Below the pieces are notes generated by a model, which was given only the letters and a program-made list of their open reading frames with translations, ran no database searches and was not told where the DNA came from. A program made the translations under genes and the position numbers. Shown here piece after piece: positions 14,753 through 17,160 of a stretch of 64,000 nt of DNA. Source of the stretch: Agrobacterium sp. RAC06. Its GTDB lineage: Bacteria; Pseudomonadota; Alphaproteobacteria; Rhizobiales; Rhizobiaceae. The stretch lies in the NCBI RefSeq assembly GCF_001713475.1, contig NZ_CP016499.1, positions 3,845,501 through 3,909,500 on the forward strand, read 5' to 3'. Position 1 is the first letter of the stretch, and each line of letters begins with the position of its first letter.

Positions 14753-15882
<1,130 letters not shown>

Positions 15883-15883
<1 letters not shown>

Positions 15884-16146
15884 TACCAAATCTCGACGAT
15901 AGGAACCTATAGGATCGCTTACTGCCGGTCTCTGGTTAGGCGCGGCGTGCCGGGCGATGCTTGTGCATCGGCCAAGCGGCACAACAACGCCTGAGGCCGG
16001 CAATAAGCCACCTTCGGTCGGCTTCCCGGTCCTTCTGGCGTCGTCGAGTTCCTTGACCGATGCGAAAGCATCGCTCGTCGGACCTCTCCTAGCCAGAAGG
16101 ACCGCTCGAGCCGATCCTATAGGCTCCTATCGTCGAGACTTGGTAT
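15883..16146. repeat. 264-bp nested palindromic element (MITE- or RIME-like)
   Basis: Outer 35-bp arms (15883-15917 and 16112-16146) are inverted copies with two mismatches. Inside are two separate foldable units. Unit 1 pairs 15918-15928 with 15997-16007 (one mismatch), then AGGCG with CGCCT, then GTGCCG (15947-15952) with CGGCAC (15977-15982), capped by CGATGC-TTGT-GCATCG (15955-15970). Unit 2 has perfect 13-bp arms (16027-16039 and 16092-16104) around CGATGC-GAAA-GCATCG (16058-16073). The whole forms a cruciform or three-way branch. No reading frame is supported inside. The left arm overlaps the stop of the ATPase gene. Confidence 0.8.
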
Positions 16147-16181
16147 TCGTTCCTCCCGGCCATGCCAAAGGCCAATCCCCT

Positions 16182-16207
16182 GGTCCGCCTTCGGGCGGAC
16201 CTTTTTT
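16182..16207 (+). terminator. Rho-independent terminator
   Basis: Perfect 8-bp stem GGTCCGCC-TTCG-GGCGGACC (16182-16201) with a stable UUCG tetraloop, followed by six T residues. It lies 36 bp after the palindromic element and would end the Gfo/Idh-ABC transcript. Bases 16208-16359 hold nothing further that I recognise. Confidence 0.88.
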
Positions 16208-16359
16208 CGTTTGGGCTCCATCGCATTCAGCAGATTGCGACAGGGTCCAACACTGGCAATCTTCGCGACATGAGTGTATAAATGCACCTTTAGTGCAACT
16301 AAAATTACGGGCCTCCTCTGCTGTTCAAAGGGATATGTAGATCCGTATAGTGAGATGGA

Positions 16360-17160
16360 TTGGGGCCAGGATTGAAAACGCCCACGAGGGATAAATTCGC
16401 TCGGCAAGGCTATAGCTTCCTGATCATTTGCCTGTTTCTCCTCGCGATCTTGCTCGTGAGTGGCCCGTATAAGGCGGGTACGGACTATTCCGCAGCGCAG
16501 CTGCGACAAGCCTCCGACTATGTGCAGGCGCTCGTGCCGGATACTCAGATTTTCCTCTATCCAAACGGGCAGCCAACCACCAAAATTCATGCTGATGCGA
16601 CCTTTGCACGCGCTGTCTCCGAGAGCCTTATGCGTGAAAGACCCGGTCGTTATCGGCGGGCATGGGGAACGGAGGATATCGCGATCGTCGCTGTCGAGAA
16701 CTTCTTCACGGCCGATCGGGAAGCACGTCTAAGGCAGCTTCGGGACCTTCCTCTGCCTGATTTCCTCAAGGAGGGCATGCTTGTATTGCCCGAGTCAGAC
16801 CTTGGCTGTCATGCCGCAAGTTTCCAACAGTTCGGTTGGGCTGTTGGCGGCTACGTCCTTGTTGATCTCGGTTATTACCGTGAGGATTCCAAACCCGCAA
16901 TTGACTGTGTCTTGGCTGGGTTCGATGCTGTCGATGGAATGCCGCTCAAGGGCAATTCATTTGATCAGGCGCTTCTGCCCGGTGCCGATGTCCGGCTCGT
17001 CATCGTGGATTACGTACGCCTCTGCGCCCATAAGGGCGTGTCGGATGCGCAAGACGGTCTGCGTTCGAGGCACGGCATCAGTTCTCTGCCGTCGATTGGG
17101 TGCGTCAGGCAAGAACTCTCAATGGCACTCAGCCAAATTCCGGAGCCTTCGGCCAAGTAG
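16360..17160 (+). CDS. Hypothetical membrane-anchored protein
   Basis: 266 residues, no family recognised. After a short basic N-terminus there is one hydrophobic helix (about residues 19-36, YSFLIICLFLLAILLVSG), then a polar extracytoplasmic-looking domain with three cysteines (DLGCHAAS, IDCVLAG, RLCAHKG) and a fourth in SIGCVRQ. No ATG fits: the frame offers TTG at 16360 or 16372, so the start is uncertain. Codon choice looks more relaxed than in neighbouring genes. It stands alone between a terminator and a convergent gene, which would suit a lone acquired gene. Confidence 0.6.
   Translation: MGPGLKTPTRDKFARQGYSFLIICLFLLAILLVSGPYKAGTDYSAAQLRQASDYVQALVPDTQIFLYPNGQPTTKIHADATFARAVSESLMRERPGRYRRAWGTEDIAIVAVENFFTADREARLRQLRDLPLPDFLKEGMLVLPESDLGCHAASFQQFGWAVGGYVLVDLGYYREDSKPAIDCVLAGFDAVDGMPLKGNSFDQALLPGADVRLVIVDYVRLCAHKGVSDAQDGLRSRHGISSLPSIGCVRQELSMALSQIPEPSAK

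Follow-up and report, generated by a model that had tools for sequence, protein, structure and literature searches.

MITEs are usually thought to need only their ends, and insertion sequences (IS) of the IS1031 group, within the IS5 family, are marked by a 3-bp TNA duplication. The bacterial MITEs Correia/NEMIS, RUP and QMITE are short and gene-less, carry terminal inverted repeats (TIRs), duplicate their target, occur in many copies and can fold (PMC10969869, PMC2229807). The CIR elements of Caulobacter and Brucella (Chen and Shapiro 2003, as described in PMC2229807) measure ~110 bp, contain a conserved GANTC and consist of two arms and a linker, by implication without an end-to-end stem. RIME appear in PMC2573895 as repeated palindromic intergenic elements of Rhizobium and Sinorhizobium. 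The locus described here lies in a window of 64,000 nucleotides (the whole stretch of DNA that was analysed) from Agrobacterium sp. RAC06. No description in the open-licence literature was recognised as this element, on a partial coverage that does not imply its absence from print.

A palindromic element at the stop codon of an ABC transporter gene

The features of the locus, in window coordinates, are as follows.

14753–15883, + strand: ABC transporter ATPase gene (MalK-type), from its ORF and Pfam ABC_tran and OB_MalK
15881–15883, + strand: stop codon TGA, which is the left target-site copy (TNA) and the insertion target, read from the sequence
15884–16145, no strand assigned: mobile palindromic element, 262 bp, from own-genome and genus copies, empty sites and target-duplication statistics
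15884–15917, + strand: left terminal arm TACCAA...GGATCG, from the sequence and genus copies
15932–15993, + strand: first copy of hairpin module H (65.3 bits with covariance model R1, E = 1.5e-16)
16005–16024, + strand: central mini-hairpin AAGCC-ACCTTCGGTC-GGCTT, close to where the quasi-palindrome turns, read from the sequence
16035–16096, − strand: the other copy of H, in inverted orientation, its start 103 bp from that of the first (83.2 bits with model R1, E = 8.3e-22)
16112–16145, − strand: right terminal arm, from the sequence and genus copies
16146–16148, + strand: position of the right target copy, decayed to TTC, from the sequence and the empty-site comparison
16182–16207, + strand: intrinsic terminator of the ATPase operon, kept in most aligned relatives that lack the element

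The initial annotation had placed the end of the ATPase reading frame at 15883 and a classical terminator behind the element, and both are where it put them. The arms and caps that it described can likewise be read directly in the sequence: 15883–15917 and 16112–16146 are 35 bp each and differ at two positions, and both inner stem-loops carry the cap CGATGC/GCATCG, with loops TTGT and GAAA. The element itself stands, while the length of 264 bp given for it does not, since empty sites and target duplications assign 15883 and 16146 to the flanks. ORFs of at least 80 aa that overlap the element all extend beyond it into the flanks. On the + strand, 15870–16220 folds at −202 kcal/mol, compared with −129.4 (sd 6.3) for 100 dinucleotide shuffles, none of which is as stable (z = −11.5). 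Downstream, an ORF of 266 aa (16360–17160) has no Pfam match.

Four full-length copies are present in the genome of origin (G000, two contigs), at 100, 87, 85 and 84% identity, together with one isolated arm. Matches occur in 25 of 63 genomes of the genus, this one included, where copy numbers are lower bounds, mostly with at most 12 candidates scored per genome. When the flanks of the window site were joined, 34 of the 63 genomes matched and gave 29 foreign loci. All of these except L075 and L083, 27 in total, entered the alignment. None of these 27 relatives carries the element at this site. Both flanks match in 24 of them and the gene side only in three (L078, L079 and L082), and TAA, TGA or TAG occupies the stop-codon position in the empty relatives. 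At a second site of the same genome, five genomes (G000, G002, G025, G036 and G040) carry the element and all 24 aligned loci are empty, its joined flanks matching something in 63 of 63 genomes. Here the empty sequence CCGCC-TAA-AAGG compares with CCGCC-TAA-[element]-TAA-AAGG in three of the five filled genomes (G002, G025 and G036); the other two, G000 and G040, each have a single base changed in one TAA copy. This comparison fixes the ends of the element at TACC...GGTA.

G036 has no insertion at the window site and carries another copy ~90 bp downstream, past the terminator of the same gene (L014:1380–1764). That copy and the window copy are two separate insertions at one gene end. Six copies in G035 cluster in a FastTree phylogeny and are 95.1–99.2% identical over their 15 pairs, which points to a recent burst in one relative. 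The window copy sits on a long single branch of a FastTree phylogeny (branch support left aside). By blastn against a plasmid collection, the full element is found on one Agrobacterium plasmid, the sole record so matched; three Ensifer plasmid records show 30-bp arm matches (E = 0.08). Phages gave no element match and viral contigs none to the exact end pattern, and two matches to the module pattern in viral contigs do not resemble the element. In L201 (1951–2339), a run of N lies inside an element. Assemblers may fail in such palindromes, and draft genomes may therefore undercount copies.

Target duplications were scored at inward-facing pairs of ends 38–420 bp apart. Of 180 such pairs, 134 had distinct full flanks, and merging of shared flanks left 120 independent sites, 50 from genus or plasmid loci and 70 from a scan of contigs (at least 120 stretches). 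An exact 3-bp duplication is present at 72 of the 120, and 71 of these are TNA (56 TAA/TTA and 15 TCA/TGA); the remaining one is CTA/TAG. Shifting the offset by 1–7 left 0–4 sites of 120, and duplication lengths of 1, 2, 4, 5, 6 or 8 bp left 0–1. The wider target is C-TNA-G. No exact duplication is seen at the other 48 sites, among them the window copy, which has TGA on its left and a decayed TTC on its right and is thus taken as an older insertion.

A mobile non-autonomous element had been the first reading of the initial annotation, and the results bear it out: the element has four copies in its own genome, its arms covary and its empty locus is found in relatives. With terminal inverted repeats, no transposase gene, a 3-bp duplication across the family and many copies alongside empty sites, we firmly conclude that it is a MITE-like transposon.

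A conserved hairpin module in the interior

The inner stem-loops, formerly called independent, represent a single 62-nt hairpin module, H, in two copies inverted to each other, and what had been seen as a three-branched design is better described as terminal arms around an inverted pair of one conserved hairpin. The two copies in the window lie 48–49 bp from the nearest element end. A search with a strict inner-hairpin pattern produced 108 matches, 89 of them distinct, in main-type elements as well as in elements with otherwise different interiors. These matches keep a constant orientation to the nearest end at a distance of 47–49 bp, apart from one shifted extra at 54 bp (L283). Among 68 elements of 260–269 bp, the pattern occurs in both halves of 27, in one half of 33, in neither half of seven and three times in one; the strict pattern misses the first module of the window, which the covariance model finds. 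With model R1, two modules rise above noise in the window (83 and 65 bits; the next match has 14.4), and no score above 14.9 bits occurs over 162 kb of sequence surrounding empty sites (51 loci). In some copies (L231, L235, L239 and L321), an additional hairpin around CGGGTTTAA..CCCG lengthens the module cap.

Folded one at a time, six modules have in common, in outline, the structure (((((..(..(((.(((...((.((((((....)))))).))..))).)))..)...))))), with small differences that are largest in L176. Their individual z-scores range from −0.5 to −4.2, so the case for the module rests on covariation. An alignment of 31 modules has a covariation score of 0.342, compared with 0.122 for shuffled alignments and 0.023–0.075 for slid structures; for one of five covariation measures, that of further pair types, 41 of 500 shuffles equalled the observed value. 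A wider set of 71 modules scores 0.529 against 0.150 when shuffled, on an alignment fitted to the model and biased in its favour. In this set A7, G8, G9 and A53, C54, G55 are nearly invariant, while most stem pairs vary. With G-A beside A-G in one of its forms, the conserved loop is reminiscent of the tandem G-A motifs in RNA. At the gathering score, Rfam has no match in the window or in 18 element loci; the best match in the element at E ≤ 10 is mir-572 (16.5 bits, E = 7.2).

When modules are read in their own orientation, G-U pairs outnumber A-C pairs by 41 to 7 (96 of 97 distinct modules; the sequences are related, so these counts do not represent independent events). Modules of other families show 46 G-U to 10 A-C. 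The bias is present separately in the first module (18:3) and in the second (21:6). As these occupy opposite physical strands, strand-biased mutation fails to account for it. Read on one strand, the whole element has 33 G-U and 29 A-C pairs among those that both folds share (287:179 over the union of the folds), a near-balance that we take as cancellation of the opposite-strand modules when pooled. Because the two pair types are nearly equal in this count, the arms look like a DNA-level feature, and a reading of the whole element as one-strand RNA was rejected for them. Template-switch repair of palindromes could produce part of the covariation, but not the strand bias. The strong covariation of H, its kept internal loops and its preference for G-U suggest selection on a folded single strand, either RNA or ssDNA, with RNA our preferred reading. 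The structured RNA offered in the initial annotation is thus retained in part, for the inner module only, from its strand-specific covariation, and given up for the arms.

The exact module pattern was found in 10 of 394 genomes (8 of 109 genera) sampled from the GTDB-style family. With covariance model R1 at E ≤ 1e-4, modules were detected in 44 of 385 genomes of the class Alphaproteobacteria and in 37 of 277 genera, with 31 family labels among the matches listed. Eight of these 44 genomes have at least 14 matches, and 12 have a single match and may include chance matches. Under the strict filters, 341 of the 385 genomes are without an H match, as are all four listed genomes from other families of the same order. 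At 29 foreign loci an inverted pair is present in 22, spaced 99–107 bp start to start in 21 (two of these 21 inverted partners are weak, with E = 0.0017 and 0.0045) and 147 bp in one, and the other seven have no second module above threshold.

These foreign pairs are bounded by different ends, such as TAGAGC.., TAGCCCGCATT.., AGTACTTAC.., TAGCCCGCATTTCTC.., TAGCACCCACTATC.., TAGGGTCCGAACCC.. and AGTACTTACTTTCATAGG.., with the tip 49–53 bp from the module in the five loci measured. Several end types sometimes occur in one genome. Elements of the TAGAGC type are predicted to duplicate 2 bp (TA). TACC ends themselves appear in two other families: G529 has a TACC-type element with a TAA duplication as well as TAGAGC-type elements, and in G634 a TACC-type element with no intact duplication stands beside TAGAGC-type elements. 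The elements that contain the module in genus g66 have CTAGAG- or CTAGGG-like ends, and a single genome yields as many as 56 match pieces. Dozens of CTAGAG-end palindromic repeat pieces with the hairpin module are visible in g66 loci L315, L316 and L325–L364. In G756, one paired-module element (ends AGTACTTACTTTCATAGGAGGG) is nested in another (ends TAGAGCGG; L405:120–760). Against plasmids, the g66 module obtained a good E-value only on the same Agrobacterium plasmid, with 34 other records at E = 0.3, and the other end types gave nothing useful.

Elements with the same TACC ends come in sizes of 42–57 bp (arms only), 138–176 bp, 261–268 bp and up to 389 bp. Arms-only mini-palindromes with their own TNA duplications were seen at L035:5753–5806, L158:2962–3003, L166, L174 and L180, several of the 42–57 bp minis belonging to Agrobacterium sp. 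a22-2 (G029), and module H is absent from all five minis tested. The existence of such minis means that the arms alone may suffice for movement. They also fit an account in which only the ends matter and the interior is inert, H being kept by template switching in register and by a few active master copies. We consider this account somewhat unlikely, since it does not predict module loops that stay nearly invariant while the stems vary, an excess of G-U over A-C in modules on opposite physical strands, or the same module under other ends in other families.

Transposase searches and stop-codon targets

Partial searches of genomes, loci and families yielded no transposase with the ends of the element and no full-length autonomous copy. 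With the end pattern at up to three mismatches in 12 genomes, no transposase-bearing inverted pair at an IS-like distance was present among the matches listed, which reach into G039 and include none from G049, and the contig scan of at least 120 stretches (80 + 40 examined) contained few end pairs more than 420 bp apart. A 1334-bp end pair in L211 was rejected as an autonomous copy, as it spans ordinary ORFs; for the pairs in L139, L163, L188, L191 and L211 (3309 bp), the coordinates point to ends that belong to separate short elements or that match only weakly. Twenty solo or short end sites proved to be minis, other copies or isolated arms. Searches for the IS5-type domains PF13340, PF01609, PF13359 and PF13586 in 9–10 genomes detected no transposase bounded by element ends.

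The TNA target and the 3-bp duplication would suit an internal-deletion relic of an IS5/IS1031-type IS, and an IS5/IS1031-like IS with a TTA duplication does reside in G035 (C18; L263, ~1444–2376). However, this IS, the sole one of its kind examined that has a TNA duplication and clear ends, has GAG.. ends and shares 7 of 18 positions with the TACC tip, and copies of the element occur in two genomes, G049 and G028, in which PF01609, PF13340, PF13359 and PF13586 have no match at E ≤ 0.001. Such an origin is therefore improbable.

On 49 of 232 flank sides the duplication coincides with the stop codon that closes an open run of at least 80 codons, compared with 322 of 4580 random TNA sites drawn from the same flanks. 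When elements were spliced out and genes called, stops were hit at 23 of 62 noncoding-or-stop sites against 9.8% expected; the crude gene caller labelled 51 of 113 sites as coding and overcalls in GC-rich DNA, so this excess is only indicative. Relative to the stop-codon gene, 19 of 68 main-type elements are in sense, 11 in antisense and 38 have no such gene, which gives the element no clear orientation. A host regulatory or 3'-end RNA element, acting in mRNA stability or termination and repeated by happenstance, could account for both stop-codon excesses, but is very unlikely in view of these orientations, the crude gene calls and the absence of the element from relatives at both sites examined.

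Proposed mechanism and comparison with described elements

The explanation that best accommodates the computed multicopy state, empty sites, boundaries, target duplication, module homology, strand-biased covariation and spread in the class under other ends is, in our judgement probably, that of a MITE-like transposon moved by a helper in trans, whose interior pair of H is selected as a folded strand. A transposase, presumably of the DDE type, would recognise the TACCAAG.. ends and join this non-autonomous DNA transposon into a C-TNA-G target, leaving the 3-bp TNA duplication. In the window the target would have been the stop codon of the sugar-type ABC ATPase gene, with the stop kept and the reading frame intact. 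Selection would act on the module strand folded as a single strand and so maintain the pairing and internal loops of H; this strand would most likely be RNA, carried in read-through transcripts, though it may be ssDNA. Owing to the inversion of the pair, the first half always holds one module in the correct orientation, whichever strand is taken and whichever way transcription runs. A conserved factor may recognise H.

More tentatively, we propose that the inverted hairpin pair could be a class-wide functional core, recognised as folded RNA or ssDNA by such a factor and persisting while the ends (TACC/TNA, TAGAGC, TAGCCCGCATT, AGTACTTAC) are exchanged or replaced. If so, the elements would be carriers of this core and not merely deletion relics of an IS. 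The conserved, strand-biased hairpin pair and its spread in the class are the surprising part of these results: in many families, the loops and compensatory pairs of an interior hairpin are preserved while the ends change. What the interior of a MITE does can thereby be tested directly, as a 62-nt module, its covariance model and naturally occurring variants of loops and stems are at hand. The repeat family has no Rfam match in the loci tested and often sits exactly on stop codons in Rhizobiaceae.

Compared with the systems introduced above, as they are described, the element resembles bacterial MITEs in being short, gene-less, TIR-ended, target-duplicating, multicopy and foldable. Unlike those MITEs, it measures 262 bp, is GC-rich and is built on an inverted pair of one conserved 62-nt hairpin, its module occurs class-wide under different ends, and its target is TNA rather than TA. 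It shares the TNA 3-bp duplication with the IS1031 group, whereas its ends differ from those of the one such IS examined. With CIR it has in common that it is an alphaproteobacterial intergenic repeat of two arms joined by a linker; in contrast to CIR as described, it is 262 bp long, has paired 34-bp end arms and contains no GANTC in 15883–16146. Like RIME, by the description of the latter, it is a repeated palindromic intergenic element of Rhizobiaceae.
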